Both the position numbers and the translations under genes were made by a program. From a virus, in the IMG/VR virus record IMGVR_UViG_3300015262_000020, positions 1-36,286 of that record: a stretch of DNA of 36,286 bases; one strand, given 5' to 3'. The notes below the pieces were generated by a model. It searched no databases. It was not told the origin of the DNA and saw nothing but the letters and a program-made list of their open reading frames with translations. Positions 15,531-33,063 of the stretch are shown here, piece after piece (the first letter of the stretch is position 1; each line of letters opens with the position of its first letter).

Positions 15531-15830
15531 ATGGCCCATCTCGATCTTGTCGCCGACATCTTCCAGCGCATTGCCGAAAAGCACGCCAAGCTGCCCGCGA
15601 AAGTGCTGCAGCAAGTCGAGCAGGAAGTGCGCGACGATTGGGGCGGCGAGCGCCATTACATCGCCAAGGTCGGCGAGAACGGCAGGGCCCAGCTCGCTGA
15701 GCGCGACCGGCAGATATGCCGCGAACACCATGCCGGCGACCACGACGAACTGATCGCGCGGCGGCACGGCATCAGCGTCAAGCGGGTACGGCAAATCCTG
15801 GCCTGCGACTCCGGAAACGCTTTGCCTTAG
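15531..15830 (+). CDS. Mor-like transcription activator
   Basis: 99 aa. The pattern LPAKVLQQVEQEVRDDWGG ... HYIAKVGENGR, then a C-terminal helix-turn-helix (HDELIARRHGISVKRVRQIL, about 72-91), fits the Mor/C family that activates middle and late promoters in Mu. It sits between terminase and head genes. Its last six codons and stop lie inside the first copy of the 28-bp late element (15812-15839), making it the natural candidate to act on that element. Confidence 0.75.
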   Translation: MAHLDLVADIFQRIAEKHAKLPAKVLQQVEQEVRDDWGGERHYIAKVGENGRAQLAERDRQICREHHAGDHDELIARRHGISVKRVRQILACDSGNALP

Positions 15831-15839
15831 TCATTTCCC
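15812..15839 (+). promoter_or_regulatory. 28-bp late element, copy 1
   Basis: It contains CGGAAACG, then TTTGCCTTA, then TTTCCC in fixed spacing, and lies 23 bases upstream of ATG 15863. Two further copies lie at 17995-18022 and 32441-32468, each 22 bases upstream of a start codon. GGAAA and TTTCC form inverted ends. There is no sigma-70 -10 match at a usual distance, so activator dependence is inferred. Confidence 0.7.
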
Positions 15840-15862
15840 GAAACACGGCCAGCCTTTCGCGC

Positions 15863-16402
15863 ATGGCCGACAATCCTCCTTGCAGCATCCCCGCCGCGAT
15901 CACTGCCGGCGACACCGCCACTTGGCGCCGCGTGCTGGATGACTACCCGGCCAGCGCCGGTTGGGTGCTGGCCTACACGTTGGTCAGCAGCACCAAGGCG
16001 TTCACCGTCACGGCAACGGCTGATGGCGATGCCTTCATCGCCACCGCGGCGGCTTCCGTCACCGCCAGCTGGGATGCGGGCACCTATCGTGTCGCCGAGT
16101 ACGTCAGCAAGAACGACGAACGCTACACGCTCGGCACCACTACCCTGCGCGTGCTGCCCAACCTGGCCGTCGCCACCAGCGGACTGGATACACGCACCCA
16201 CGCGCAGAAGGTATTGGACAGCCTCAACGCCTGGCTGGAAAGCAAGGCGCCCGTCGCCGGGGCCATGGAAATCAACGGCCGCAAGATCAGCTGGTATCCG
16301 CTGCCTGACCTGATCAAGCTGCGCGACCGGTACCGTGCAGAAGTCGCCACCGAACAACGCGCCACCGGCGGTTTCGGTTCGCGCATCCTGGCGGTGTTGT
16401 GA
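15863..16402 (+). CDS. Head-tail connector-region protein (179 aa)
   Basis: 179 aa, starting 23 bases after the late element. The first two thirds look like an immunoglobulin-like beta sandwich (DTATWRRVLDDYPASAGWVL ... TATADGDAFIATAA). The C-terminal third is helical (KVLDSLNAWLESKA, and LIKLRDRYRAEVATE). The second part resembles small connector proteins placed before lambda-type portals (gpW position). The precise role is unproven. Confidence 0.65.
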   Translation: MADNPPCSIPAAITAGDTATWRRVLDDYPASAGWVLAYTLVSSTKAFTVTATADGDAFIATAAASVTASWDAGTYRVAEYVSKNDERYTLGTTTLRVLPNLAVATSGLDTRTHAQKVLDSLNAWLESKAPVAGAMEINGRKISWYPLPDLIKLRDRYRAEVATEQRATGGFGSRILAVL

Positions 16403-17988
16403 TGTTCGGGCTTTCCCGCCGATCGCCGGCAGAATGCGCGATCACAGAGCGCGGCAAGAAACTTGCCGCCGCCGTCGATCAACTGATCGCCGAGCGCGCA
16501 GCGCCCGCGCCACCGCCCGCCCATGCTGCTCGCCGTTTCGACGCCGCCCTGGTCAACCGGCTCACCGCATCGTGGCAAAGCATGAACACCGCGATCGACG
16601 CGGAGCTGCGCGGCGATCTGGATCGCATGCGCGCGCGCAGCCGCGACCTGTTCAAGAACAACGAATACGCCGCCAAGTTCGGGCGCACCGTCAAGTCCAA
16701 CGTCGTCGGCCCCGAGGGCTTCCGGTTTCAGGCGCGGTCGTCGGACAGCGGCACGCTCGACACGCTCGCCAACAAGGCCATCGAAAAGGCCATGTGGAAA
16801 TGGTCCCGGCCCGACCAGTGCGACGTCACCGGCAAGCGCAGCTTTGCCGATATTTGCCGTGGCGTAATGCTTGCCACCGCCCGCGATGGCGAATACCTGG
16901 TGCGCAAGCGCCGCGGCAACGGCGCGGGGTTCTTCGGCTACCAGCTGCAGCTGCTGGATGCCGACCGGCTCGACACGACATACAACGTCGCCCCGGCCAA
17001 CGGCCGCAACGCGGTCATCATGGGCGTGGAGGTCGACAGCTGGCGCAAGCCGGTCGCCTACCACTTGTGGAACCGCCACCCGAACGAAGCGGCCAACGGC
17101 ACGCGCAGCCGCGAACGCGTGCCGGCCAGCGACATCTTCCACGGTTACATCCCGCTGGAAGACGAACAGACACGCGGCGTGCCGTGGATGCATGCGGTCA
17201 TGCGTCGCACCAACGACTTGAACGGCTACCGCGAAGCCGCGGTGATCGCGGCGCGCATCGGTGCCGCCAAGATGGGTTTCTTCACCAGCCCCGACGGCAG
17301 CCCGAGCGGTGTGGCCGATGGCCAGACCCCATCCGGCGAGTTCATCACCGAGGCCAGCCCCGGCACCTTCGGCGTGCTGCCCGATGGTTACACCTTCACG
17401 GCGTTCAACCCGGATTACCCGCACGCGCAGTTCGACATGTTCTGCAAGGCTGCCTTGCGCGGCATATCGAGCGGCTTGCCGGGCGGCAGCTACCACACCA
17501 TCGGCAACGATCTGGAAGGCGTCAGCTTTTCGTCCATCCGCAGCGGCACGCTGGAAGAGCGCGACGAATGGATGGCCATCCAGAACTGGCTGATCACCGC
17601 CTTCCTGGTGCCGGTCTACGAAGATTGGCTCGACATGTCGCTGTTGCGCGGCGCCATCCTGCTGCCCAACGGCAGCGCCTTGCCGTTGGCCAAGCGCGAC
17701 AAATTCGCCGAACACCTGTGGCAGGGCCGGCGCTGGCAGTGGGTGGATCCGCTCAAGGACATCAACGCGTCCGTGGTGGCGATCGAGAACGGCCTGGCCA
17801 GCCCGCAGCAAATCGCCAGCCAGACCGGCCGCGACATCGAAGAAGTGATCAACGACCTGGCGGCTTTCCAGGCGCTGCTCGCCGCCAAGGGCGTCACCCT
17901 CACCGGTACCACGGCGGCCACCGCTGCCTTGGCCACCGCCGCCAGTGCCGACGAAACCACACCGTCCAAACCCGCCGCCAAGAACTGA
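16402..17988 (+). CDS. Portal protein (lambda gpB-like)
   Basis: 528 aa from ATG 16402, whose A is the last base of the previous stop (TGATG). Family features include SRDLFKNNEYAAKFGRTVKSNVVGPEGF near residue 80 and the large middle domain with YQLQLLDADRLD and VPASDIFHGY. It also has a C-terminal block with NWLITAFLVPVYEDWL. Portals form the dodecameric ring at the head vertex through which the terminase pumps DNA. Length matches lambda gpB (533 aa). Confidence 0.93.
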   Translation: MFGLSRRSPAECAITERGKKLAAAVDQLIAERAAPAPPPAHAARRFDAALVNRLTASWQSMNTAIDAELRGDLDRMRARSRDLFKNNEYAAKFGRTVKSNVVGPEGFRFQARSSDSGTLDTLANKAIEKAMWKWSRPDQCDVTGKRSFADICRGVMLATARDGEYLVRKRRGNGAGFFGYQLQLLDADRLDTTYNVAPANGRNAVIMGVEVDSWRKPVAYHLWNRHPNEAANGTRSRERVPASDIFHGYIPLEDEQTRGVPWMHAVMRRTNDLNGYREAAVIAARIGAAKMGFFTSPDGSPSGVADGQTPSGEFITEASPGTFGVLPDGYTFTAFNPDYPHAQFDMFCKAALRGISSGLPGGSYHTIGNDLEGVSFSSIRSGTLEERDEWMAIQNWLITAFLVPVYEDWLDMSLLRGAILLPNGSALPLAKRDKFAEHLWQGRRWQWVDPLKDINASVVAIENGLASPQQIASQTGRDIEEVINDLAAFQALLAAKGVTLTGTTAATAALATAASADETTPSKPAAKN

Positions 17989-17994
17989 GTGGCG

Positions 17995-18022
17995 CGGAAA
18001 CGCTTTGCCTTATCCATTTCCC
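17995..18022 (+). promoter_or_regulatory. 28-bp late element, copy 2
   Basis: The same element as at 15812, six bases after the portal stop and 22 bases upstream of ATG 18045. The first 18 bases are identical to copy 1. Being between genes here, its conservation is not explained by coding. Confidence 0.75.
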
Positions 18023-18044
18023 AAACCATCGCGATGCTGAGGTC

Positions 18045-19919
18045 ATGAACATGCACCAGCCCGACGAACTCAAACCCGGCAGCACCGGCGAGCGCTTCCT
18101 GCGCCTCGACGCCGAGCGTGCCGTGATCGATGAGGCTGCGCGCACCGTCACGCTGGCCTTTGCCAGCGAAACCCCGGTGGATCGTTACTGGGGCGTGGAA
18201 GTGCTCGACGTGAAAACCAGCAGCATGCGCCAGGGCCGCCTGAAGAGCGGCGGCGCGGTGTTGATGGATCACGACATGCGCGACCAGGTGGGAGTGATCG
18301 AGTCGGTACAGATCGGCACGGACAAGGTTGCCCGGGCCGTGGTGCGCTTTGGGAAAAGCGCGCGTGCCAGCGAAATCTTCCAGGACGTGGTGGACGGCAT
18401 CCGGCAGAACGTCTCCGTCGGCTACCGCATCTACGACGCCAAGCTCGAGTCCGAAAAAGACGGTGTCGGTACCTACCGCGTCACCGACTGGGAACCCTAC
18501 GAAATCTCGCTGGTAAGCGTGCCCGCCGACCCGAAGGTCGGCGTCGGGCGCAGCGCCGACCCCGAACCCATCATTCCCCGCATTCCGGAGATCCGCATGA
18601 ACGAGAACACCCCCCCGGCGCCGGTCGACACCGTCGCCATCGAAAACGCCGCCCGCACCAGCGCCATCGACGCCGAGCGCAAGCGCACCGCCGACATCAC
18701 CGCCGCCGCCGACCAGCTGAGCAAATACGACGGCGTGCGCGACATCGCCGCCGAGGCCCTGCGCGCCGGTTGGAGCATGGATCAGTTCCGCGCCAAGGCG
18801 CTGGAAGTGGTCACCAGCAAGCCGCTGCCCACTGCCGACATCGGCATGAACGCCAAGGAAGTGCGCCGGTACAGCATCGTGCGCGCCCTGCACGCGATGG
18901 CCAACCCGACCGACCAGCGCGCCCGTGAGTCGGCGGCGTTCGAGTTTGAGGTATCCGGCGCGGCTGCCGACAAACAGAACCGCAGCGTCAAGGGCATTCT
19001 GGTGCCATTCGACGTGCTCAACGCGCAGCGTGCGGACAACCTGGTCAAGGGCACTGCCACGGCTGGCGGCAATCTCGTCGCCACCGACCTGCTGTCGGGC
19101 AACTTCATCGACCAGTTGCGCGCCAAGATGGTGCTCAACGGCATGGGCGTACAGTTCCTGTCCGGTCTGGTGGGCAACATTGCCATCCCGCGGCAGACGG
19201 GCGGCGCCACCGCCTACTGGGTCGCCGAGAGCGGCGCCGGCACGCCGTCGGGTCAGGCGTTCGACCAGGTCGCCATGAGCCCCAAGACGCTCATGGGCCG
19301 CACCCAGATCAGCCGCAAACTGCTGCTGCAGAGCGCCATCGACGTTGAAGCCTTCGTGCGCAACGACCTCGCCACCGTGCTTGGCCTGGCGCTGCAGGCG
19401 GCCGGCATCAAGGGCGGCGGCACCAACGAGCCCACCGGCATCCTCGGCACCGCCGGCATCGGTTCGGTGGTCGGCGGCACGAACGGCGCGGCGCCGACCT
19501 GGGCGAACATCGTCGCCCTGGAAACCGCCGTGGCCACCGCCAACGCGGACGTGGGCGCGCTCGGTTACCTCACCAACGCGGCGGTGCGCGGCAAGCTCAA
19601 GACCACCGAGCGTTTCGCCACCAGCAACGGCGCGCCGATCTGGGCCGATGGCAATACGCCGCTCAACGGCTATCAGGCTGGCGTCACCAACGCGGTGCCG
19701 GGCAATGGCACCAAGGGCACCGGCACCGCGCTCAGCTCGATCATCTTCGGCAATTTCGCCGATCTGATCTTCGGCATCTGGGGCGGTCTGGAGCTGCAGG
19801 TGGATCCGTACAGCTCCGGCGACAGCGGCAGCGTGATCGTGCGGGCCTTCCAGGATTCGGACATTGGCGTGCGCCATGCCGAATCGTTCGCCGCCATGAC
19901 CGACGCGATCACCGCGTAA
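18045..19919 (+). CDS. Fused prohead protease and major capsid protein
   Basis: 624 aa. Residues about 20-170 form an HK97-type (U35) prohead protease, with His76 in LMDHD and Ser124 in NVSVGY as likely catalytic residues. A charged helical scaffold-like segment (about 195-290) follows, then an HK97-fold capsid domain (about 340-624, with SGNFIDQLRAKMVLNGMG and GGATAYWVAES). An internal ATG at 18597 (Met185) has GGAG six bases upstream, so a separate scaffold-capsid product could be made. The protease would remove itself and the scaffold after assembly. Late element copy 2 lies just upstream. Confidence 0.93.
   Translation: MNMHQPDELKPGSTGERFLRLDAERAVIDEAARTVTLAFASETPVDRYWGVEVLDVKTSSMRQGRLKSGGAVLMDHDMRDQVGVIESVQIGTDKVARAVVRFGKSARASEIFQDVVDGIRQNVSVGYRIYDAKLESEKDGVGTYRVTDWEPYEISLVSVPADPKVGVGRSADPEPIIPRIPEIRMNENTPPAPVDTVAIENAARTSAIDAERKRTADITAAADQLSKYDGVRDIAAEALRAGWSMDQFRAKALEVVTSKPLPTADIGMNAKEVRRYSIVRALHAMANPTDQRARESAAFEFEVSGAAADKQNRSVKGILVPFDVLNAQRADNLVKGTATAGGNLVATDLLSGNFIDQLRAKMVLNGMGVQFLSGLVGNIAIPRQTGGATAYWVAESGAGTPSGQAFDQVAMSPKTLMGRTQISRKLLLQSAIDVEAFVRNDLATVLGLALQAAGIKGGGTNEPTGILGTAGIGSVVGGTNGAAPTWANIVALETAVATANADVGALGYLTNAAVRGKLKTTERFATSNGAPIWADGNTPLNGYQAGVTNAVPGNGTKGTGTALSSIIFGNFADLIFGIWGGLELQVDPYSSGDSGSVIVRAFQDSDIGVRHAESFAAMTDAITA
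18587..18599 (+). promoter_or_regulatory. Internal ribosome binding site for capsid-only product
   Basis: GGAG (18587-18590), six-base spacer, ATG (18597-18599), in frame within the protease-capsid fusion at the domain border (after PIIPRIPEIR). It would yield a 440-aa scaffold-capsid protein. Sequence-based prediction. Confidence 0.5.
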
Positions 19920-19922
19920 GCC

Positions 19923-20222
19923 ATGGATGCCTGGGCCGACTTCGCCGCCGCTTCCCGTGAACTGCTCGCCACCCTCGGCGAGCAGGGCACGGTGGTGCGC
20001 GGCGCGGCCGGCCCGGTCACGCTGATGTTTTTCGTGGACGACGCCGTGCAGGACGTGGGCCAGTACGGCCGCGTCATCGGCAACAAGCGCGTGCTGTCCA
20101 TGATGCGCGACGACTGGCAGCCGGCCCGCGGTGACGTGATCACCGTGCGCGGGCGAACCAGCAAGGTCGATGAAATCCTCACCGACGACGGCATCGTCGT
20201 CACGGTGGTGATGTATGGCTAA
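19923..20222 (+). CDS. Head-tail joining protein (99 aa)
   Basis: 99 aa with a helical start and a beta-rich second half (GDVITVRGRTSKVDEILTDDGIVVTVVMYG) like lambda gpFII-type head-tail joining proteins. It starts three bases after the capsid stop and overlaps the next gene by eight bases. Assigned by size, position and fold hints. Confidence 0.65.
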   Translation: MDAWADFAAASRELLATLGEQGTVVRGAAGPVTLMFFVDDAVQDVGQYGRVIGNKRVLSMMRDDWQPARGDVITVRGRTSKVDEILTDDGIVVTVVMYG

Positions 20223-20673
20223 CCCCTCGCGCAGCTGGGCCATCATCCTGGCGCTGCAGACGCAGTTGTCCACCATCACGGTGGCCAACGGCTACCTCAC
20301 GGACATCGGCAAGCAAGTCTGGGTCACCGAAAACCAGCGGCCCAGCGCCGTCGCGCTTGGGCTGATGATCTACAGCGGCCCCATCCTGGGCAGCGGCATC
20401 GACAACGAACGCCCGGGCAAGCCGGTGCGCGAATTCACCATCTACGTCGAGGCCGCCATCGGCACCGACCAGGACGACGCCCAGCAGCAGATCCACAACG
20501 TCATCGAGGATGTCGAAGAGTGCATGAAGGCCTACGCGAAAGCGCAAGCCATGCGCCTCGAGCTGAATCAGGTGAAGCCCATGGCCGTCACCGACATCGC
20601 GATTCTCGACCGCCCCGAAGGCGCCGTCGACATGGTCATGGTCGCCAACGTGGTGGCGAGGTACTTCCGCTGA
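20215..20673 (+). CDS. Tail completion / minor tail protein (152 aa)
   Basis: 152 aa with an alpha/beta layout (helix 8-25, beta strands around GPILGSG and EFTIYVEAAIG, helix 80-110, final strands). This resembles tail terminator proteins such as gpU. It lies in the usual slot between head-joining and tail-tube genes. Shares TGATG with the next gene. Role by position. Confidence 0.6.
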   Translation: MANPSRSWAIILALQTQLSTITVANGYLTDIGKQVWVTENQRPSAVALGLMIYSGPILGSGIDNERPGKPVREFTIYVEAAIGTDQDDAQQQIHNVIEDVEECMKAYAKAQAMRLELNQVKPMAVTDIAILDRPEGAVDMVMVANVVARYFR

Positions 20674-21215
20674 TGGCCCGCTACACCTCCTTCGCCGTCG
20701 AACTGACCGGTGCCCTCGAAGCCGCGCAGCAGCTCAGCGCCATCCCCGGCCGCATCCTGCAGGCGCAGAAGCGCGCGCTTGGCACCGTGCGCCGCCGCCT
20801 GGCTACCGAGGCGAAGCGCGACATCGCGGCGGAATACAACCTCAAGGCCGGCCGCATCGCCGACGGTCTCACCGTGCGCAACCAGTCCGACGGCATCGCG
20901 CTGATCGGTCGCTCGCGCGGCATCAACGCCATCCAGTTCGGCGCCACCTGGTCGCGCCGCATGAAGGGCGGGGCGCGTTACGCCATCCATCGCGGCGGCG
21001 ATCGCGGCGGCCGCGATGGCGCCTTCATCGCCACCGGCAAAAGCAACAACCGGCTGGTGTTCGAGCGCAGCGGCGACAAGCGCCTGCCGATCCAAGCCGT
21101 CTACGGTCCCAGCGTCGGCCAGATGCTCAAGCACGGCCGCCGCCCCGAGCGCCTCGCCGAGTTCGCCATCCGCGTGCTGCAGTCCGAGCAGCAACGCCTG
21201 CTGGGAGTGCGCTGA
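20673..21215 (+). CDS. Minor tail protein, gpZ-like (180 aa)
   Basis: 180 aa, strongly basic. The pattern is an N-terminal helix bundle (IPGRILQAQKRALGTVRRRLATEAKRDIAAEYNLKAGRI, about 28-66, interpretable as the phage gpZ/minor-tail signature). A basic loop and a C-terminal helix follow. In lambda-like phages gpZ helps finish the tail before head attachment. Coupled to the upstream gene by TGATG. Confidence 0.65.
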   Translation: MARYTSFAVELTGALEAAQQLSAIPGRILQAQKRALGTVRRRLATEAKRDIAAEYNLKAGRIADGLTVRNQSDGIALIGRSRGINAIQFGATWSRRMKGGARYAIHRGGDRGGRDGAFIATGKSNNRLVFERSGDKRLPIQAVYGPSVGQMLKHGRRPERLAEFAIRVLQSEQQRLLGVR

Positions 21216-21216
21216 C

Positions 21217-21474
21217 ATGCCCTTCATGAAATTGCTGCGCGACCACACTCACGCCGGCACCCCGTACACCGTCGGCGCCCGACTGCATGTGGACGCCGCC
21301 ACCGCCGAATGGCTCGCCGCGCTCGGCGTCGCCGAACTGGCGGAACACCTGACCCTCAAGAGCGCGACACCGGCGGTGGGTGAGCCTGCCGCCGCGCCGG
21401 CCCGCAAGCACAAACCCACCTCGCCGCGCACCGCGGACACCGACACCACCGGAGACGACCATGGACAACGTTGA
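21217..21474 (+). CDS. Hypothetical protein (85 aa)
   Basis: 85 aa: a small ordered first half (MPFMKLLRDHTHAGTPY ... ATAEWLAALGVAE) and a disordered Pro/Thr/Lys-rich tail. The middle resembles small proteins seen before tail-tube genes in other phages; function unknown. It overlaps the tail-tube start by 14 bases. Confidence 0.6.
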   Translation: MPFMKLLRDHTHAGTPYTVGARLHVDAATAEWLAALGVAELAEHLTLKSATPAVGEPAAAPARKHKPTSPRTADTDTTGDDHGQR

Positions 21475-22243
21475 AACCTACCTGTACGGCCAGGGCCGTG
21501 TATCCCTGGCGTTGCGCGACGCCATCACGGGCGCGCTCGGCCGCTTCGTCTACGTGGGCGACGTCAGCGCCCTGTCCGCCAAGCTCACCACCGAAAAGGC
21601 CAAGCACGTCGAGAGCAACAGCGGGCAGAAGGGCACCGTGCGCAGCTTCGGCATCGGCAAAAGCTGCACGCTGGACATGACGTGGCACCAGTTCGACACC
21701 GACAACCTCGCCATCGTGCTGCAGGGCACGTCTCTGGCGACCGCGGCCGGCACTGTCACCGCCGAAGAAATCGCCGGGCCGCTGGCCGTCGGCGATGTGT
21801 TCTATCTGCAGAACCCCGGCGTCTCCAATGTCATCATCAAGGACAGCACGGGCACGCCGATCGTGCTCGTGCTCGATACCGATTACAGCATCGAAGATGC
21901 GGCGTTCGGTCGTTGCCGACTGCTGAACGTCGGCACCTTTGCGTGGCCACTGCTGGTCGACTACAGCTACAGCGCCCGCAAGGCTGCCGGCATGTTCACC
22001 ACCGGCCAGAAGGAATACGCGCTGCGCTATGAAGGCGTCAACCTGGCCGAAGGCAACGCGCCGGTCATGGCCGACTACTACAAGGTCGCGCCGGACGTGC
22101 TGGCCGAGCTGGCGCTGATCACCAGCGGCAGCGACGTGGCCGGCATGCAGATCACCGGCGAAGTGCTGCGCGATACCAGCAAGCCGGCCACCGGCGCGCT
22201 GGGCCAGTACGGCCACATCACGCAGATCGCGGCCGCCGCCTAA
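21461..22243 (+). CDS. Major tail tube protein
   Basis: 260 aa, mainly beta, with a regular pattern of strands (VSLALRDAITGALGRFVYVG; GDVFYLQNPGVSNVIIKDSTG; LDTDYSIEDAAFGRCRL). It occupies the slot directly before the G/GT chaperones and tape measure. A Shine-Dalgarno GGAG is six bases upstream of the ATG. Subunits would stack as rings around the tape measure to form the flexible tail tube. Confidence 0.75.
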   Translation: MDNVETYLYGQGRVSLALRDAITGALGRFVYVGDVSALSAKLTTEKAKHVESNSGQKGTVRSFGIGKSCTLDMTWHQFDTDNLAIVLQGTSLATAAGTVTAEEIAGPLAVGDVFYLQNPGVSNVIIKDSTGTPIVLVLDTDYSIEDAAFGRCRLLNVGTFAWPLLVDYSYSARKAAGMFTTGQKEYALRYEGVNLAEGNAPVMADYYKVAPDVLAELALITSGSDVAGMQITGEVLRDTSKPATGALGQYGHITQIAAAA

Positions 22244-22246
22244 ACC

Positions 22247-22732
22247 ATGGCCAAGCAACCAGCAGCATCGCAGGACGGCGAGGACGACCTCGCCATCCTG
22301 TTTCCCGATCGGCACGTGACCATCGCCGGCAAGGCGGTGGTTATGCGCGAGTTCCGCTGGGCCGAAGGCCTGCGCCTGCAAGCGCTGATCGCGCCCATCG
22401 TGCAGCATCTTGCCCATCTTGCCGAGCAGGGTGAGTTGATGCAGGCGGCGGCGCTCGATGCGCTGTTCGCCGATCACGCCGACGACCTGTTGCTGCTCAT
22501 CGCCACCGCGTGCGACCAGCCGGTGGAGTGGGTGACCGCGCTTTCGGACAGGGACGGCAGCAACCTGCGCCTGTTGTGGTGGACCGTGAACGTCCCTTTT
22601 TTCGCGACGCGGGTACGCGAGCGCCTGCAGGCCAATCACCTTCATCAGCTCGCTGGTCCGATGTCTTCGCCATCCTCATCGACGCCGGACACAACCCCGA
22701 GCGGCTCGGGCAGTACACGCGTCGTCAACTGA
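22247..22732 (+). CDS. Tail assembly chaperone G
   Basis: 161 aa. The first 119 residues are the folded chaperone part (LFPDRHVTIAGKAVVMREFRWAEG ...). The zero-frame tail after the slippery site is Ser/Thr/Pro-rich and low complexity (SSPSSSTPDTTPSGSGS), as expected where the sequence mainly serves the other frame. It binds the tape measure during tail assembly. A minority of ribosomes should shift to make GT. Confidence 0.8.
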   Translation: MAKQPAASQDGEDDLAILFPDRHVTIAGKAVVMREFRWAEGLRLQALIAPIVQHLAHLAEQGELMQAAALDALFADHADDLLLLIATACDQPVEWVTALSDRDGSNLRLLWWTVNVPFFATRVRERLQANHLHQLAGPMSSPSSSTPDTTPSGSGSTRVVN

Positions 22733-22857
22733 ATCTGCACCTGGATGCCGCCTTGCGCCTCATGCGTCGTGACCGTCGGGTTCACATCGTGGATACCAGC
22801 GCCGGCACGCACGGCGGCGACGCGGCAAAGCAACTGTTGCGGGAACTGAAGGATTGA
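22247..22857 (+). CDS. Tail assembly chaperone GT (frameshift product)
   Basis: A -1 shift at 22597-22603 joins residues 1-119 of G to 84 residues in the other frame, giving about 203 aa. The T part (WSDVFAILIDAGHNPERLG, YTRRQLNLHLDAALRLMRRDRR) looks like natural protein and has no start of its own in a sensible place. GT recruits tail tube subunits to the G-coated tape measure. It ends three bases before the tape-measure ATG. Confidence 0.8.
22597..22603 (+). promoter_or_regulatory. Programmed -1 frameshift site T_TTT_TTC
   Basis: In the G frame the codons are CCT TTT TTC; the heptamer T_TTT_TTC allows both tRNAs to re-pair one base back. The -1 frame is open from here to 22857 and encodes the T domain. 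Position, just before the G stop and before the tape measure, matches the conserved tail-chaperone frameshift. Confidence 0.85.
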
Positions 22858-22860
22858 GCC

Positions 22861-25422: not shown

Positions 25423-26618
25423 TGGCCTATGCGATCGGCGAAGCGGTGCCCTGGCCGGTGCCACCGGACTGGGGTACGGCTGTGCGCGACACGCGCGCCT
25501 GGCTCACCGACTACATCAACCCGCGCAACGGTGCCCGCCAGAAACGCCAGCTTCGCCTTTCGCCGCGCCGTACCGTGGAGTTCAACGTCGTGGCCACCGA
25601 CGCCAATCGCCGCCTCGTGGACGCGTTGCGCTTCGACCAGGGTGCCCGGCAATGGTTGCTACCGATCTGGCCCGATCTGCAATACCTGTCGGCATCGCTG
25701 TCGCTGGGTTCGACCAGCATCCCCTGCGCCACCACGGGCTACGACTTCGCCGACGCCGGCCAGGCGCTGCTGTGGAGCGCGCCCAACCACTGGGAGGTGG
25801 TGCAGGTCGCCACCGTCGAAAGCGACCACCTCGCGTTGTCGGCGGCCACGCTGGCCATCTGGCCGGCCGGGACGCGGCTGTATCCCCTACGCCTGGCGCG
25901 CGTGCCGGATGCCGCGCAGGAATCGCTGTGGACGGATGATGCCAGCCAGATCAAGGTGGTGATGCAGGTGGATGAACCCTGCGACTGGCCCGCCGTGGCG
26001 CCGGCCACCACCTACCGCGGCTATCCCGTGCTCGAGTGGCGCGGCGAGGAAAGCAGCGGCCCCAACACCAAGTACGACCGCGCCATCCAGACCGTGGACG
26101 GCACCACCGGCGCCATCGTCTACATCGATCTGCCCGCGCAGCCGTTTCGCACCCAGTCCCATAACTGGCAACTGGTCTACCGTGCGGAATACGCGGCCTT
26201 CCTGAGCCTGCTGTATTGGCTACGTGGTCGCATGGGCACCTTGTGGATGCCCAGCTTCGCCAGCGACCTGTTGCTGGCCGCCAGCGTCGCCAGCGACGCC
26301 ATCAGCGTCAGCGTGGAGTGGGCTGGCTATACCGTGTTCGGGCGCCAGCAAAGCAACCGCCGCGACATCCGCATCGAGCTGTATAGCGGTGCCGTGTTGT
26401 ATCGCCGCATCACCGCCAGCATCGAGGCCGGCAACACCGAAACTCTTACCCTCGACAGCGCGCTCGGCGTGGCGGTGGCGCCGGCCGACGTGCGCTGCAT
26501 CAGCTTCATGACGCTGAGCGAGCAGGCCGCCGACAGCATCAGCATCGACCACGTCACCGACGCGGACGGCCTCGCGCAGGCGCAAACCACCTGGGCAGGG
26601 ATTCGCCATGACGTCTGA
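25422..26618 (+). CDS. Distal tail protein (398 aa)
   Basis: 398 aa, beta-rich with many Trp. The order is an N-terminal domain (about 1-90), a middle sandwich (ALLWSAPNHWEVVQVATVESDHL), then a region with FRTQSHNWQLVYRAEYAAFLSLLYWLRGRMGTLWMPSF. This resembles tail proteins directly after the tape measure in phages that use a BR0599-type protein next. It shares TGATG with the tape measure and overlaps the next gene by 11 bases. It probably caps the tube end. Confidence 0.65.
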   Translation: MAYAIGEAVPWPVPPDWGTAVRDTRAWLTDYINPRNGARQKRQLRLSPRRTVEFNVVATDANRRLVDALRFDQGARQWLLPIWPDLQYLSASLSLGSTSIPCATTGYDFADAGQALLWSAPNHWEVVQVATVESDHLALSAATLAIWPAGTRLYPLRLARVPDAAQESLWTDDASQIKVVMQVDEPCDWPAVAPATTYRGYPVLEWRGEESSGPNTKYDRAIQTVDGTTGAIVYIDLPAQPFRTQSHNWQLVYRAEYAAFLSLLYWLRGRMGTLWMPSFASDLLLAASVASDAISVSVEWAGYTVFGRQQSNRRDIRIELYSGAVLYRRITASIEAGNTETLTLDSALGVAVAPADVRCISFMTLSEQAADSISIDHVTDADGLAQAQTTWAGIRHDV

Positions 26619-27423
26619 AGCGCGCGACGCCAGCCTCGACCAGGGCCAGCCGCTGAAGCTGTACACGTTCACGCGGTCCACCAAGACCTGGCGATACACC
26701 GACGCCGACCGCATCATCTTCTACGGCGGCAACGCCTATGCGCCGGCGCCGATCACGCATACCCAGATCACCGACGGCGGCGAGCAGAACAAAATCAGCA
26801 TCACGCTCACGCTGCCGAAGTCACTGACCGTGTGCGACAACTGGCGACCATATCCGCCGGCTGATCCGATCAACGTCACCATCTACACCCAGCACTTCGG
26901 CGAGACCGATTTTCTCGCCGACTGGGTCGGCCGCATCATCAGCCCCAAGTTCGGCGACACCACCCTCGCGCTCACCAGCGAGCCCAGCAGCACGATGGCG
27001 CAGCGCGCCGGCGGTGGCCGTACGTTCCAGCGTGGCTGCGACCTGCTGCTGTATTCACAGGGCCTAGGCCTGTGCAACGTCGATCCTGAGTTGCACAAGA
27101 TCACCGGCACGCTCACCGGCGCCGCATCGCTGATGCTGAGCGCGGCCGAGTTCGCCACGCTGCCCAGCGGCCGCCTTGCCGGCGGCTACATCGAGTGGCC
27201 TCGAGCGGACGGCTTGCTCGATCGCCGCAGCATCGACAGCCACAGCGGTAGCACGATCATGGTCGATTACGGCGGCCCCGAGTTGCTGCAGGGCCTGGTG
27301 TTCGACGCGTTCCCCGGCTGCAACCAGAGCTGGGATGACTGCACCTACTACGAAAACAACGACAACTACGGCGGGGAATTGTGGATCCCCGGCCGCGACT
27401 ACTACGACGGCAACCCGATCTGA
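26608..27423 (+). CDS. DUF2163 / BR0599-type tail protein
   Basis: 271 aa. The N-terminal two thirds fit DUF2163 (beta sheet with DFLADWVGRIISPKFGD). The end has the BR0599 signature: GLVFDAFPGCNQSWDDC ... ENNDNYGGELWIPGRDYY, with Cys residues and N-x-x-x-Y-G-G. Comparable proteins in gene transfer agents and siphophages form part of the tail hub. The conserved Cys may bind a metal. Confidence 0.8.
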   Translation: MTSEARDASLDQGQPLKLYTFTRSTKTWRYTDADRIIFYGGNAYAPAPITHTQITDGGEQNKISITLTLPKSLTVCDNWRPYPPADPINVTIYTQHFGETDFLADWVGRIISPKFGDTTLALTSEPSSTMAQRAGGGRTFQRGCDLLLYSQGLGLCNVDPELHKITGTLTGAASLMLSAAEFATLPSGRLAGGYIEWPRADGLLDRRSIDSHSGSTIMVDYGGPELLQGLVFDAFPGCNQSWDDCTYYENNDNYGGELWIPGRDYYDGNPI

Positions 27424-27433
27424 TGAGCACGCC

Positions 27434-27544
27434 ATGCTGAAAGCCCTTGCCCTGTTCGCCGTGCTGTTCCCTTGGCCGCTGCTGATCCCCAGCGTGCGCC
27501 GCCACCTTGCGCAGCGCATCGCCGCCGCGCGTCGGAGCCGCTGA
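27434..27544 (+). CDS. Very small membrane-like protein (36 aa)
   Basis: 36 aa: one hydrophobic stretch (ALALFAVLFPWPLLIP) and a basic Arg-rich tail. Ten-base gap after the BR0599-type gene; the following gene starts two bases after its stop. Too small to assign. The spacing within the operon supports a real gene. Confidence 0.5.
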   Translation: MLKALALFAVLFPWPLLIPSVRRHLAQRIAAARRSR

Positions 27545-27546
27545 CC

Positions 27547-27759
27547 ATGTGGGTCGCACTCGCCATCGTCGTCGTCGCCCTCATCCTGGCCGTGGCCATG
27601 ATGCCGAACGTGCGCAACCAGAACACCGGTCCGACCAAGGGCACCGTGCCCGACGTGAAAGACGGTAAACGGGTCATCCGCATCTACGGCACCGTCTGGA
27701 TCAACGACCCGATCCAGCTCGCCATGCTCAACACCGGCCAGACCCCGATCCGCAAATGA
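27547..27759 (+). CDS. Membrane-anchored small protein (70 aa)
   Basis: 70 aa with an N-terminal hydrophobic segment (MWVALAIVVVALILAVAMM) and a soluble 50-residue remainder (GKRVIRIYGTVWINDPIQLAMLN). Four-base overlap with the next gene. Similar small anchored proteins occur in the tail-tip modules of related phages; function unknown. Confidence 0.65.
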   Translation: MWVALAIVVVALILAVAMMPNVRNQNTGPTKGTVPDVKDGKRVIRIYGTVWINDPIQLAMLNTGQTPIRK

Positions 27760-27983
27760 TCATCACCCTCGAACATCTCGCCGGCGTCCGCGGCTTCAGC
27801 GTCAATCCCGGGTTCTGCCGCCATGGCGCGCGCGCCTGGGCCAGGCGGCACGGCATCGACTGGTCGCACTTCCGTCATCACGGCATCGACGAAGCCGCGT
27901 TGCTGGCGATCGGCGACGCTTTCGCGCTCGCGTTGGTGCGGCACGCGCACGACATGGAGGCCTCGCATGGGCGGCAGCAGTAA
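27756..27983 (+). CDS. Small tail-module protein (75 aa)
   Basis: 75 aa, His-rich (FRHHGIDEAALLAIGDAFALALVRHAHDME). Starts in an ATGA overlap and overlaps the tail-tip gene by 17 bases. Recurs, in my recollection, before large tail-tip genes; no function known. Confidence 0.6.
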   Translation: MIITLEHLAGVRGFSVNPGFCRHGARAWARRHGIDWSHFRHHGIDEAALLAIGDAFALALVRHAHDMEASHGRQQ

Positions 27984-30849
27984 GCAAACCGTCGGCTATT
28001 GGTACAACTGGGCCATGTGCTTCGGCTGGTGCAAGGGTCCCGTCGATGCGTTCCTCGAATTCCGCGCGGGCGACAAGACCGCATGGCAAGGCCGGCTCAC
28101 GTCCAGCGGCACTATCTCGATCAACAAGCCCAACCTATGGGGCGGCGAAGACAACACCGGCGGCGGCACCGGCGGCATCGTCGGCAGCATGGACGTTATG
28201 TTCGGCGAAGCCACCCAGGCACCCAACGACTACCTCGTCAGCACCTTCGGCCCCCAGCAATCCGGCCGACGTGGCAAGTTCTGCACCGTCTTTCGCGGCG
28301 GCAAGTTCGGCGCGTTCGTCGCCAACCCGAAACCGGTCAGCGCGAAGCTCGAACGGATCCTTGCCGATTGGCAGGACGACACGCCGTGGTATCCGGAGAA
28401 GGCGAGGATCAAGCTACCCACAGGAGTGATTGCGAATGACTGGAGGCACGTGGAGCTTTCCTGCGACGGCAACATAGTGCGCTTCTTTGTATCTGGAATC
28501 CTCCGCGGTCAAACAACGCTTGATTACACGCCAAATGGTGGTATCGGCGGTCATGCCACGGTGGGCAGGTATCGTTATTCCACCAACGATGGCTCACCAT
28601 ATCGTGGGTTCATCGATAACTTCCGAGTGACCAAGCGGGTCAGGCATTCAGATAATTTTTCGCCTTTGCGCGATGAGCCTAGTCCACAAACTGATCCCTA
28701 TTGGTCGGACGTGTTGGTAATGCTTCCGATGAATGGTGCTGATGGTTCTACGACCTTCACGGATCTGAAAGGCAATGCATGGACAACCGCAGGAGCGGCG
28801 TCGATGTCTACTGCCAAGTCGGTTAGCGGTGGTGCGTCTGGTCATTTCAGCGGCGGTGGTTTTGTGTCGTTGCCATACGCGAGCGGGCTCAATCTTGGAC
28901 CGCATTGGACGATGGACATGTGGGTCAGTCCGGATTCGCTACCAGGCGAAATTGCCAATCTGTGGCAATTGGACAACCAGCACTCCGGTTACATGATCGC
29001 GATCAATTCAGATGGCACGCTCAAGGTCATTTTTGGTCGGAACACATGGCCGTCTGATCCCATTGTGATGGACGAAACCGGGGACGCCGATCTCATTGGC
29101 ATGAACCCGGCTCATATCCTCTACGACAGCCTGACTCATGCTGACCTGCAGGGCGAACCAGTCGGGGCGATCAGCGACGCAAGCTTTCGCGATGCGGCGG
29201 ACAAGCTATATGACGAGGGCTTTGGCTTGTGCACTGATTACGACAGCAGTCAGGAAACGCCAAAACAGTTCCAGCAACGCATCTGCAATGTCATCGGCGC
29301 CAGCCTCAGCCAGAGCCGCGTAGACGGCCTGTATTACTTGGACCTGATTCGGGGTGACTATGACCTCGACAGTCTGCCGATCATCAGTGATGACGACATC
29401 ATCTCCTTCTCGCAAGATCCAAGCGTCATCACCGAAACTGGAAATAAACTCAGTGTGGAGTGGCAGGATCCACAAGCCAAGGAAACGCGAACTACGGCAC
29501 CGATCTATTCGATGGGCAACATTCGCAGCGCGGGCAGGGTGATCCCGGCCGAGACAAAAAAATATCCTGAGATTCCGGTAGAGAGCCTGGCGCTTCGTGT
29601 GGCGGCCCGCGACTTGAAGTCCACCGCTGTGCCGCTCAACAAGTTCGATCTATCGACACGCGCGACGCAACGCGGTCTGCGGCCCGGCATGAATGCGCGC
29701 CTGCAGATGCCGTCCGAAGGCATTGCCGACATGGTGGTCGTGATCGGCAGTGTGGCGCACGGCACGGCAACGAAGGGTGATATGAAGATCGTCGCTGTTC
29801 AGAACGTGTACAGCATGCCGTCAACGGTCTACGTGACGCCGCAGGATGGGCTATGGGTGCCTCCCGCAACTACGCCAACGGCATCGCCGCATCAGCTTGC
29901 TTTCGAGGCGCCCTATGTCGAGCTGGCCAGTTCATTAAGTTATGCCGATCTGTCAGCACTGCCTGCCGATGCCGGGTATCTCCTGACGGTGGCCACTCGA
30001 CCAGCGGCCGGCGTCAACTACGCGATCGACACCGCGGCCGCTGGCGAAGACTATACCGAACGCGGCAGCGGTGAGTGGTGCCCCACGGCCACGATCAACG
30101 AAGCCGTAAGCTACCTCGACACGGCATTCACCATCGCCGCCGGTGAGTTGCTCGATCGCGTCGAGGTAGGAAGCTGGGCCTGGTGGGATGATGAGATCGT
30201 TCGCGTCGACGCCATCGACAGCACGGCCGGCACTCTTACGCTTGGCCGCGGCTGCGCGGATACCGTTCCAGCGCAACATGATGTCGATTCACGCATCTAC
30301 TTCTGTGGCGACTGGATCGGGAGCGATCGCCGCGAATACGTCGGCGGCGACGTCGTTGCCGCGAAGTTGCTCACCCGAACGGGAAGTGAGTCGATGGATC
30401 TCGCTGATGCCACAGCGCAGGAAGTGACATTCGATGAGCGAGCTGCGCGGCCGTACCCGCCGGGGCAGCTGCGCATCAACGGCCAGGCGGATCCGTCCTC
30501 CATCGTCGGCGCCATCACGATCGCCGGCGTGCATCGCGACCGCGTGCAGCAAGCCGACCAACTGGTGGACAGCGAGATGGCCGCCATCGGCCCGGAGGCG
30601 GGCACCACATACACCGTGCGCTATCTGCTCAACGGCACGCTGTTGTTCACCGATACTGGGTTAGCTATGCCGGCCTCGAGCTATACGCCGAGCGGCGCGG
30701 GGATCATGCGCGTGGAGGTTGAATCGTCGCGCGATGGGCTGACCAGCTACCAGATGCACGTGCGCGAGTTCGCCATCGGCCAGCCGTTGCTGGCGGAAAA
30801 CGGCGACCCGATCACCACCGAAGACAACCAGATCATCATCATGGGGTAA
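27967..30849 (+). CDS. Central tail tip / host-specificity protein with inserted LamG domain
   Basis: 960 aa, start ATG 27967. The N-terminal ~155 residues (GYWYNWAMCFGWCKGPVDAF ... GGTGGIVGSMDVMFGEATQ) and residues about 370-960 (starting AMNP-like GMNPAHILYDSLTHADLQGEPVG) form a tail-hub protein of the gpJ/baseplate-hub type. Between them lies a LamG-like block (about 155-366) in C-half then N-half order. The insertion region is visibly lower in GC than the rest. The protein should sit at the tail tip, contact the receptor and control DNA release. Confidence 0.85.
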   Translation: MGGSSKQTVGYWYNWAMCFGWCKGPVDAFLEFRAGDKTAWQGRLTSSGTISINKPNLWGGEDNTGGGTGGIVGSMDVMFGEATQAPNDYLVSTFGPQQSGRRGKFCTVFRGGKFGAFVANPKPVSAKLERILADWQDDTPWYPEKARIKLPTGVIANDWRHVELSCDGNIVRFFVSGILRGQTTLDYTPNGGIGGHATVGRYRYSTNDGSPYRGFIDNFRVTKRVRHSDNFSPLRDEPSPQTDPYWSDVLVMLPMNGADGSTTFTDLKGNAWTTAGAASMSTAKSVSGGASGHFSGGGFVSLPYASGLNLGPHWTMDMWVSPDSLPGEIANLWQLDNQHSGYMIAINSDGTLKVIFGRNTWPSDPIVMDETGDADLIGMNPAHILYDSLTHADLQGEPVGAISDASFRDAADKLYDEGFGLCTDYDSSQETPKQFQQRICNVIGASLSQSRVDGLYYLDLIRGDYDLDSLPIISDDDIISFSQDPSVITETGNKLSVEWQDPQAKETRTTAPIYSMGNIRSAGRVIPAETKKYPEIPVESLALRVAARDLKSTAVPLNKFDLSTRATQRGLRPGMNARLQMPSEGIADMVVVIGSVAHGTATKGDMKIVAVQNVYSMPSTVYVTPQDGLWVPPATTPTASPHQLAFEAPYVELASSLSYADLSALPADAGYLLTVATRPAAGVNYAIDTAAAGEDYTERGSGEWCPTATINEAVSYLDTAFTIAAGELLDRVEVGSWAWWDDEIVRVDAIDSTAGTLTLGRGCADTVPAQHDVDSRIYFCGDWIGSDRREYVGGDVVAAKLLTRTGSESMDLADATAQEVTFDERAARPYPPGQLRINGQADPSSIVGAITIAGVHRDRVQQADQLVDSEMAAIGPEAGTTYTVRYLLNGTLLFTDTGLAMPASSYTPSGAGIMRVEVESSRDGLTSYQMHVREFAIGQPLLAENGDPITTEDNQIIIMG
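28424..29066 (+). other. LamG-like insertion in permuted order
   Basis: Residues about 155-245 look like the C-terminal half of a LamG/concanavalin-like domain (WRHVELSCDGNIVRFFVSG ... YRGFIDNFRVTKRVRHSDNF). Residues about 258-366 look like the N-terminal half (LVMLPMNGADGSTTFTDLKG ... HWTMDMWVSPDSLPGE). Flanking tail-tip sequence resumes at GMNPAHILYD. Hand counts of 40-60-base stretches here give about 48-57% GC, lower than neighbours. A carbohydrate-binding role is inferred. Confidence 0.6.
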
Positions 30850-30853
30850 TGCG

Positions 30854-31675
30854 ATGCCACAGATTTCCGAAATGGCCGCGCCGGCGGCGCTGTCAGGCCT
30901 TGAACTGATTCCCGGCCTCCAAGGCAACGCCAATGCGGGCATGCCGCTGCTGGCGCTCGGTGGCTTGCCTCGCGGCAATGTGTTGCAGCTACGCCGTTCC
31001 TACGCCGCCGACTTGGCCGCCACCACCGACGCGGATCCCGGCGCCGGCAAGCTGCGCTGGAACAACGCAGTGCCAGCATCCGCGACCGTGCTGTACGTCA
31101 GCAACACCGCTGCTGACGCCGCCGACATCTCGGCCGCGTGGGCAACGCTTGCTGTGGGCGGTTTCGTTTATGTCCAGGGCAGTGCCGACGGAGCCCATCG
31201 CGCCAACTGGCAGAAGTGGCAGATCACATCGGTGACCGCGGTGAGCGGATACGCCAAGATTGGCGTATCCCTGCAGGCCAGTGCCGGCGCCTTTGCCGAC
31301 ACCGACACGATCGAGCTGACCTTGCAACAGCCAACGCCTTCACTTGGCGTTAACCGGAACATCAGCAATACCGTTGCCTCGGCGAGCGGTGTGCTGACGC
31401 TCGACCTATCGCTTGGGGACTACTTCAAAACCACGTTGACCGAAAATATCACCAGCATCGTGCTGACCAATGTCCCGGCGGCCGGCACGTTCAGTTTGTC
31501 GATCACTCAGCACGCCTCGGCGGCCAAGACCGTCACCTTCCCGGCGATCTGGAAGAAAGCTGGTGGCGGCAGCTTCGTCGTGTCGACGACGTTGAGCGCG
31601 CGGGATCGCGTCATCTTTACTACCGACAACGCCGGAGCGAGCTACGACGTCGACATGGGCAAGGGCTACGCATGA
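30854..31675 (+). CDS. Tail fibre-like protein (273 aa)
   Basis: 273 aa, rich in Ala/Thr/Ser and beta strands. The ending (DYFKTTLTENITSIVLTNVP ... SFSLSITQHASAAKTVTFPA) resembles the repetitive beta sheets of phage fibres and appendages. It follows the tail-tip gene and overlaps the next gene by four bases. Receptor binding is inferred. Confidence 0.65.
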   Translation: MPQISEMAAPAALSGLELIPGLQGNANAGMPLLALGGLPRGNVLQLRRSYAADLAATTDADPGAGKLRWNNAVPASATVLYVSNTAADAADISAAWATLAVGGFVYVQGSADGAHRANWQKWQITSVTAVSGYAKIGVSLQASAGAFADTDTIELTLQQPTPSLGVNRNISNTVASASGVLTLDLSLGDYFKTTLTENITSIVLTNVPAAGTFSLSITQHASAAKTVTFPAIWKKAGGGSFVVSTTLSARDRVIFTTDNAGASYDVDMGKGYA

Positions 31676-32289
31676 GCGCGCTGCTGAAGCATCAACAATT
31701 GATTTTGTCAGGTGGTGGTGCCTTGGTGGTCTGGGACCCAGCGGCCGTTGGCGCAAATTTGTCGCTCTCTAACGGCAATCTAACCGTCACGCGTGGCACG
31801 GGCGGAGGCTCGTCATGGACCACAGTGCGCGCAACGCAGGGCCGCAGTAATGGCAAGCGGGTGTTCCAGGTCAACAACGATGTGGTCACGTCCAACAACG
31901 ACGGACTGATGGTGGGCTTTGTTACCGCTAGCACATCCCTCGCCGGGTTCTGCGGAAGCACCGCCGACAGCTTCGGTGTCCACTCGATCAACGGTCGGTG
32001 CTACAACAATAATCTGCAAGTGGGTTCGGATGCCCTTCCGCAAACCGTGAACACTCAACGCCGTCTCGCCGTCGACTTCGCCGCCGGACTAATCTGGGTC
32101 GGACTTGGTACTACCTGGATCGGAGACCCAGTAGCGGGCACCGGCGCTCGGTTCTCATTCCCCCCCGGCACTACGCTTTACCCAGCTGCTTCGGGGTATC
32201 GCAGCCCCCAACAAGCTACCGGTTATTTCCGCGTCGCCGATCTACCTGGCACGCCCTATGGACTGCCCAGCGGTTTCACCGACTGGTGA
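31672..32289 (+). CDS. SPRY/B30.2-like tail appendage protein (205 aa)
   Basis: 205 aa. The pattern WDPAAVGANLSLSNGNLTVTRG, GKRVFQV, GLMVGFV, then GLIWVGLGTTWIGDP and LYPAASGY matches the strand order of SPRY/B30.2 domains. These occur in phage receptor-binding proteins. Lower GC than the structural genes around it suggests recent exchange. Last gene before the terminator and lysis cassette. Confidence 0.7.
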   Translation: MSALLKHQQLILSGGGALVVWDPAAVGANLSLSNGNLTVTRGTGGGSSWTTVRATQGRSNGKRVFQVNNDVVTSNNDGLMVGFVTASTSLAGFCGSTADSFGVHSINGRCYNNNLQVGSDALPQTVNTQRRLAVDFAAGLIWVGLGTTWIGDPVAGTGARFSFPPGTTLYPAASGYRSPQQATGYFRVADLPGTPYGLPSGFTDW

Positions 32290-32303
32290 TGAAGTAACGG
32301 AGC

Positions 32304-32327
32304 GCCGGGCTGCTGATACAGCCCGGC
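32304..32327 (+). terminator. Strong hairpin at the end of the tail operon
   Basis: GCCGGGCTG (32304-32312), loop CTGATA, CAGCCCGGC (32319-32327): a perfect nine-base-pair stem. The following CTCTCTCC has few T residues, so it is a weak intrinsic terminator or an RNA-stabilising end. Confidence 0.55.
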
Positions 32328-32391
32328 CTCTCTCCACGACAGGCGTGGACCACACTGCGGGCAACTTCCCCTAAACACACCCGCACCCCGG

Positions 32392-32416
32392 CGGCAACCA
32401 TGGCGCCATGTTGCCG
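32392..32416. repeat. Dyad upstream of the lysis cassette
   Basis: CGGCAAC-CATGGC / GCCATG-TTGCCG is an almost perfect inverted repeat with one extra C, 24 bases before the third late element. It could be an operator or an RNA hairpin. The rest of 32290-32490 shows no gene. Confidence 0.45.
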
Positions 32417-32440
32417 ACCTTGCCACCGCCCGCGCTGCCC

Positions 32441-32468
32441 CGGAAACGGTTTGCCTTAGTGGTTTCCC
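32441..32468 (+). promoter_or_regulatory. 28-bp late element, copy 3
   Basis: The same element as at 15812 and 17995 (C to G in CGGAAACGG), in non-coding DNA 22 bases upstream of the endolysin ATG. This is the third independent occurrence with the same distance to a start codon. Confidence 0.75.
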
Positions 32469-32490
32469 GCGCGCGGTCGAACATTCGCCC

Positions 32491-33063
32491 ATGACGACGA
32501 ATGCCATCGACCAGCGTCTGCCTGCGAAGCCCGTCCAACTGGCCTGGGGCGCACGCGTCAGCACTGCCTTCGCGCAGGTGGTGTTCGGCATCTGCAAGGA
32601 GTTCGGCTGGGGACCGCAGCACGCGAGCTGGCTGATGGCGTGCATGGCGTTCGAAACCGGCACAACGTTCAGCCCATCGGTGCGCAATGGGGTCGGCAGC
32701 AGCGCCGTGGGGCTCATTCAGTTCATGCCGGCGACGGCGCGCGGCCTGGGCACCACCGTCGAGGATCTCGCACGGCTTTCGGCGGAAGCCCAGCTCGGCT
32801 ACGTGCGTAGCCATTTCCGCCCATACGCGCGGCGCATCGCCAGTCTGTCCGACATGTACATGGCCATCCTGCTGCCCAAGTACATCGGCCAGCCGGAAGA
32901 TGCCGTGCTGTTCTCCGGCGGCGTGGCCTACCGACAGAATTCCGGGCTGGACGCCAACCGCGACGGCAAGATCACGAAGGCCGAGGCCACTGCACGGGTT
33001 GCCGACATGCTCAAGCGGGGCATGCAGCCGGGTGTATTCGCAACATATGAGGCCGCGACATGA
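32491..33063 (+). CDS. Endolysin: SLT transglycosylase with EF-hand loop
   Basis: 190 aa. Soluble lytic transglycosylase-like fold with the likely catalytic Glu55 (MAFETGTTFSPSVRN) and GSSAVGLIQFMPATA, the GLMQ-like motif. Residues 154-165 (D-x-N-x-D-G-x-I-x-x-x-E) form a canonical 12-residue EF-hand calcium loop. It cleaves the peptidoglycan glycan strand at the end of infection. No signal peptide is visible, so it should depend on a holin, two candidates for which follow. Preceded by late element copy 3. Confidence 0.88.
   Translation: MTTNAIDQRLPAKPVQLAWGARVSTAFAQVVFGICKEFGWGPQHASWLMACMAFETGTTFSPSVRNGVGSSAVGLIQFMPATARGLGTTVEDLARLSAEAQLGYVRSHFRPYARRIASLSDMYMAILLPKYIGQPEDAVLFSGGVAYRQNSGLDANRDGKITKAEATARVADMLKRGMQPGVFATYEAAT

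Follow-up and report, generated by a model that had tools for sequence, protein, structure and literature searches.

What is the function of a 28-bp sequence that occurs three times on one strand of a viral genome, each time shortly before a gene? The record in question (IMG/VR IMGVR_UViG_3300015262_000020) was analyzed as a single stretch of 36,286 nucleotides, hereafter the window. Initial annotation from the sequence alone viewed the repeats as a candidate late promoter, driven by a Mor-like activator whose gene ends inside the first copy. The three copies are almost certainly switches for late genes (head, capsid, and lysis), as judged from sequence comparison, and the element is probably switched by a virus-encoded activator resembling Mor of phage Mu.

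Three copies of the element and the genes behind them

Pattern search of the record places the copies exactly where they were first noted, with CGGAAACGCTTTGCCTTAGTCATTTCCC at 15812-15839, CGGAAACGCTTTGCCTTATCCATTTCCC at 17995-18022, and CGGAAACGGTTTGCCTTAGTGGTTTCCC at 32441-32468, all on the same strand and, as originally counted, 23, 22, and 22 nt before an ATG. With up to 3 mismatches allowed, the full pattern is found three times on the forward strand, never on the reverse strand, and never in the control, so there is no fourth copy in the 36,286-base record even at 3 mismatches. The shorter pattern TTTGCCTTAnnnnTTTCCC, searched at the same tolerance, gives three matches, every one exact, against 0.21 expected, and none of 100 shuffles attained three. 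The inverted ends described at the outset are real: GGAAA and TTTCC occupy positions 1-5 and 22-26 of a 26-bp core. The gene that ends inside copy 1 indeed encodes a Mor-family protein by both Pfam and PHROG, and this gene (mor), the genes following each copy, and the elements of the three candidate promoters are collected in Table 1.

Table 1. Features of the three candidate late promoters (numbered 1 to 3) and their genes; positions are those of the window
Feature	Position	Strand	Remarks
Mor-family activator gene (mor)	15531..15830	+	Pfam PF08765 (E=1.5e-7); late transcriptional activator by PHROG (phrog_532/836); follows terminase large subunit gene directly; precedes all three promoters
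Element copy 1, core (26 bp) GGAAACGCTTTGCCTTAGTCATTTCC	15813..15838	+	about -49 to -24 relative to predicted start at 15862; overlaps last mor codons
Minimal -10 box CAGCCT, promoter 1	15850..15855	+	fixed offset, 12-17 past element
Head-tail joining gene (phrog_5774)	15863..16402	+	first behind promoter 1; A of ATG is predicted +2; lacks a Shine-Dalgarno match
Portal protein gene (Phage_portal_2)	16402..17988	+	presumed second gene of promoter 1 operon
Element copy 2, core GGAAACGCTTTGCCTTATCCATTTCC	17996..18021	+	noncoding; predicted -49 to -24
Minimal -10 box GATGCT, promoter 2	18033..18038	+	same offset as in promoters 1 and 3
Fused S78 protease/HK97-type major capsid gene	18045..19919	+	A of ATG is predicted +1
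Hairpin GCCGGGCTG-6-CAGCCCGGC	32304..32327	+	behind tail genes, before promoter 3; not called by terminator scan
Element copy 3, core GGAAACGGTTTGCCTTAGTGGTTTCC	32442..32467	+	noncoding; predicted -49 to -24
Minimal -10 box GAACAT, promoter 3	32479..32484	+	same offset as in promoters 1 and 2
Endolysin-type gene	32491..33063	+	weak Phage_lysozyme2 and SLT matches; phrog_4928, phrog_196; A of ATG is predicted +1

The activator had been suggested to drive its own operon as well as other late operons. Because copy 1 sits at the 3' end of mor, it can drive only genes downstream of mor, and this part of the proposal falls away, whereas control of the other late operons is strongly supported by the sequence comparisons below. 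All three promoters follow mor and the terminase genes, so mor would be expressed from an earlier promoter. The hairpin ahead of promoter 3 is a possible weak terminator.

Several other genes in the window deserve mention. The gene at 13097-13582 matches phrog_1384, a Mom-like DNA modification protein; it is flanked by the two terminase genes, precedes mor, and is without the element, whereas mom of phage Mu is a C-activated late gene. In the early region, a gene for an Lcl_C-domain protein is encoded on the minus strand (3987-4427). At the left edge, a tRNA gene (46-119) and the end of a gene for a large serine recombinase (79-1626) overlap, and a DUF72 gene lies on the right side (34727-35647); together, these make the record look like a provirus with host flank.

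A minimal -10 box and the predicted transcript start

None of the copies had been credited with a sigma-70 -10 box at a normal distance. This holds for consensus boxes, in that scans for consensus sigma-70 promoters found none near the copies, but not for a minimal box, [C/G]AnnnT, which begins after 11 nt from the end of the element, at an identical offset in all three copies; the initial annotation overlooked both this box and the start that it predicts at or next to the ATG. In the sigma-70 -10 hexamer, the second and sixth bases matter most, and A and T occupy these two key positions in all three boxes of the window. Among 35 nonredundant sites from the window and its relatives (see below), offset 13 past the element is A in 30 (P = 1.7e-21) and offset 17 is T in 31 (P = 9e-24), against a spacer background of about 14% A and 13% T, and every other offset from 1 to 23 carries at most 0.34 bits, i.e., is essentially unconserved. 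AnnnT is present at the exact offset in 30 of the 35 sites and within 1 nt of it in 34, and when similar spacers are collapsed, both bases are kept in 29 of 33 clusters. The -35 position reads TTA or TCA followed by nnn. A matrix combining the element with the -10 box, trained without the genome under scan, scores real sites at 33 to 57 and everything else at 4 or less, and it finds no weaker further copies above background in either the window or its relatives.

In the related contigs, nearly every element is followed by an ATG 23-25 nt further on. If the conserved T is taken as -7, the predicted +1 is the A of this ATG in 13 sites and falls 1-4 nt before it in another 17, such that an ATG at predicted +1 to +5 opens the expected gene at 30 of the 35 sites. 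Transcripts beginning on the start codon or so close to it would be leaderless. The five exceptions are L005, L080, L013:7813, L077:9552, and L101: in the first two, an ATG is present at +1/+2 and does not open the expected gene, and in the last, to judge from its sequence, the start is probably a GTG adjoining the listed ATG. L013:7813 and L077:9552 are capsid promoters whose ATG lies further down and is provided with a Shine-Dalgarno sequence, making them natural leaderless/leadered switches.

A late promoter of this kind could also start transcription somewhat further up- or downstream and yield a short leader rather than a truly leaderless message. Start-site choice can vary by a few nucleotides, and the five exceptional sites have no gene start codon at +1 to +5. 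Against a short leader, 26 of 30 sites have the T at -7 and the ATG spaced by 6 or 7 nt, and a pyrimidine directly precedes the ATG in 29 of 30 (versus 14 of 20 for other start codons of the window; Fisher P = 0.012). Nor are Shine-Dalgarno sequences enriched unless the start codon is displaced: a 4-nt match precedes 4 of 32 promoter-proximal ATGs, where chance alone gives 10%, and all three start codons displaced to about +22 to +35. We regard a short leader as improbable, though it is the most serious competitor to leaderless messages.

Conservation of the element and its association with Mor

When the viral collection was scanned for exact matches to GGAAACGNTTTGCCTTANNNNTTTCC, 22 stretches were recovered, and a looser scan adds a few. 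The nonredundant sites number 35, from about 25 contigs and prophages of related viruses, and they are not fully independent because related phages share ancestry. The consensus of the core is GGAAACGSTTTGCCTTANYSRTTTCC, with positions 3-5, 9-15, 17, and 22-25 invariant. The search of related prophages, which had been proposed as a check, thus finds the element in the same three gene positions: near-complete relatives have three sites each, all pointing along the late genes, namely, after the Mor-like gene and before the head-tail gene, in the gap between the portal and protease-capsid genes, and before the lysis gene. Three sites are present in the window and in G003, G004, G014, and G028; one relative, likewise with three sites, is a prophage within a Rhodanobacter genome bin. 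The genes that follow differ, with the head-site copy preceding either phrog_5774 or phrog_118 and the lysis-site copy preceding at least three nonhomologous kinds of gene (SLT-like, phrog_3108, and one that, from reading its sequence, we take to be GH108-like). In the stretches read from six isolated phages whose head genes are homologous, the element is absent, the best matches having 7-9 mismatches.

A motif scattered through the host chromosome away from gene starts would have spoken against a phage promoter. Of 398 genomes of the order to which Rhodanobacter belongs, 395 lack the element, and the three positives are the Rhodanobacter prophage, a genome with mor and two sites, and G089, which has two stray copies and no Mor; host genomes therefore carry the element only with a prophage, one stray apart, and no such scatter is seen. 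The two G089 copies (L108:6526-6551 and L108:7172-7197) occupy an rhs-like locus of the host at a spacing of 646 bp; the second has a good -10 box, and its ATG at +1 leads into sequence resembling an rhs C-terminal region.

The Mor-like gene accompanies the element in 11 of 12 element-bearing genomes tested (the exception being G089), and all 17 aligned Mor homologues match Pfam Mor. In G019, about 2.1 kb of cargo splits mor from the first element (L081:8208-10190, corresponding to G019:18207-20189), and the element is still at a late gene start, there ahead of the different head gene phrog_118. G025 encodes a 29%-identical Mor and has a different element, GAAACGCCTGGACTGAAAATTTC, which occurs exactly twice, after mor and before the capsid gene, each time with a -10-like CAAGAT or CAACAT following 12-13 nt on. 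Contig L039 has GAAATCTTTGCTCAAAATTTCC behind mor and is too short to hold a second copy. Copies within a genome differ less than copies between genomes (2.10 versus 3.68 differences; P = 5e-5), and in G021, the ends have changed symmetrically (G1 to C together with C26 to G) in both copies. The persistence of the pair across the G019 cargo, the nonhomologous downstream genes, the G025 pair, the likeness within genomes, and the symmetric change in G021 suggest one trans-acting reader that coevolves with its sites, and they point to Mor as the obvious candidate.

No operators were identified at the more distant Mor loci L043, L044, L046, and L118. A gene of Stenotrophomonas phage S1 (gp5, L124:5357-5677), annotated as a putative peptidase, matches the late transcriptional activators of phrog_836 and likewise lies behind the terminase, with a different operator. 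Relatives of Mor in the isolated-phage collection gave no tblastn match at an E value of 1e-5, and sequence search for a relative of solved structure returned nothing significant. In the predicted Mor model (pLDDT of 75.5), the top Foldseek match, a weak one (E value of 0.26), is to Mu C from the initiation complex 9l0x, with Mor itself (1rr7) ranking fifth, and VIA Z values of 6.9-7.1 are no higher than those of unrelated HTH entries.

Could the element instead serve another factor, such as a host regulator, an alternative sigma factor, or a phage RNA polymerase, with Mor a mere neighbor? The core TTTGCCTTA is asymmetric, GGAAAC resembles the -35 elements of ECF sigma factors, and the distance from GG to GC is near that of sigma-54 promoters. 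A sigma-54 promoter itself was rejected: the copies read GG-N9-GC, and sigma-54 requires GG-N10-GC (-24/-12). Against any such factor, the -10 box, with its A at -11 and T at -7, follows the sigma-70 pattern, the element is confined in host genomes as described above, a diverged Mor is paired with a diverged element, and G019 keeps both at a distance of 2.1 kb. We consider a factor other than Mor unlikely.

Less likely by far is an RNA hairpin in the 5' leader that controls translation from a fixed distance to the start codon. Its inverted ends, constant distance from the ATG, and symmetric double change in G021 would suit such an element, but consistent pairing is limited to 5 bp (of the 35 sites, 17 cannot form pair 6-21 and 7 cannot form pair 7-20), and where the ATG is displaced, it is the distance from element to -10 box that is constant to within 1 nt. 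A conserved -10 box downstream of the element moreover places the element outside the transcript. There is no Rfam match at the three copies. Finally, that the element is a functionless gene flank inherited with the structural genes, or a product of chance, has a negligible probability: many of the sites do come from related phages, but the element stands before nonhomologous genes and at three dispersed places per genome, the spacer between element and gene is unconserved (mean identity of 0.32), and chance expectation is far below the count.

The idea of a late promoter under Mor that started this analysis has thus gained strong, sequence-based support from the conserved positions, the -10 box at a fixed offset, the co-occurrence with Mor, the diverged pair, and the absence from 395 of 398 genomes.

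Proposed activation of late operons and comparison with phage Mu

We propose that the Mor-like protein would be produced along with the terminase at an earlier stage of the lytic cycle and would bind the 26-bp inverted-repeat element at about -49 to -24, straddling the -35 region. There it would recruit host sigma-70 RNA polymerase to the minimal -10 box, which is presumably too weak alone, and the first transcribed nucleotide would lie at the first gene's ATG or 1-4 nt ahead of it. The messages for the head-tail joining protein, the capsid, and the endolysin would then be leaderless, and one activator would serve three late operons, i.e., head completion and portal, capsid plus tail, and lysis. 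We hold it highly probable that these are Mor-activated promoters of the sigma-70 type giving leaderless mRNAs, with Mor binding, initiation by host RNA polymerase at this place, the start nucleotide, and leaderless translation as predictions of this reading.

How Mor would sit on the element can be imagined in more than one way. The perfect arms lie at -49 to -45 and -28 to -24, 21 bp (two helical turns) apart from center to center, and form a dyad centered near -36.5; an alternative, imperfect 14-bp dyad is possible at -49 to -36 (center, -42.5). A simple dimer bound to an inverted repeat does not account for the asymmetric middle, which lies at -41 to -33 and is invariant or nearly so. Among the structure matches, the PDB entry for Mu C and polymerase contributes at least three C chains, so more than one dimer is conceivable, and both one dimer across the two arms and two dimers on the element may be considered.

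In phage Mu, Mor binds a dyad at -51 to -36, centered at -43.5, and recruits RNA polymerase (PMC4287176). The arrangement described here resembles the Mu Pm promoter and Mor in its Mor-family protein, possibly in having its dyad upstream of and overlapping the -35 region, and in a -10 box that is (here by prediction) activator dependent with no usual -35. It differs from Pm in that the arms extend from -49 to -24 around a center near -36.5 with an asymmetric core, the element being longer (26 bp) than that of Mu Mor and reaching to -24, in that several operons are served, in that the start codon is at the predicted +1, and in that its protein is no more than a distant relative. Four late promoters of Mu (Plys, PI, PP, and Pmom), with nonconsensus -10 and -35 sequences, are activated by C (PMC4461284). 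As with C, a single Mor/C-family activator would govern several late operons, including lysis, through nonconsensus -10 and -35 sequences, but the sequence and length of the element are different, and the messages here are predicted to be leaderless. The phages also differ: Mu is a transposing phage, unlike the present one, which has a GpA-type terminase, a lambda-type portal, and a protease-capsid fusion.

The lambda cI message from PRM is leaderless. Leaderless mRNAs are known elsewhere too, e.g., in mycobacteria (PMC4633059). The late messages proposed here resemble them in having a predicted transcription start at the ATG and no Shine-Dalgarno sequence, and they differ from them in that leaderlessness would be a rule for the late structural and lysis operons of a phage under one activator. 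Our literature search found no description of the motif or of leaderless late promoters of this kind.

The element is in all likelihood functional and a variation on the Mor/C type of late promoter; leaderless late messages are the most interesting prediction. On balance, we favor the view that this group of temperate phages possesses a compact module, some 50 bp long, that fuses an activator site with a minimal -10 box and a start codon and from which one Mor-like activator would control leaderless head, capsid, and lysis operons, through an operator longer than that of Mu and placed differently. The sites with a displaced start codon and a Shine-Dalgarno sequence, together with the second pair of Mor and element, offer ready-made comparisons. 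If the proposal is true, Mor/C control reaches beyond Mu-like phages to phages with a GpA-type terminase and a protease-capsid fusion, the late operons of such phages could be located by a sequence signature, and the capsid and other phage proteins with heavy expression would provide a testable case of leaderless translation.
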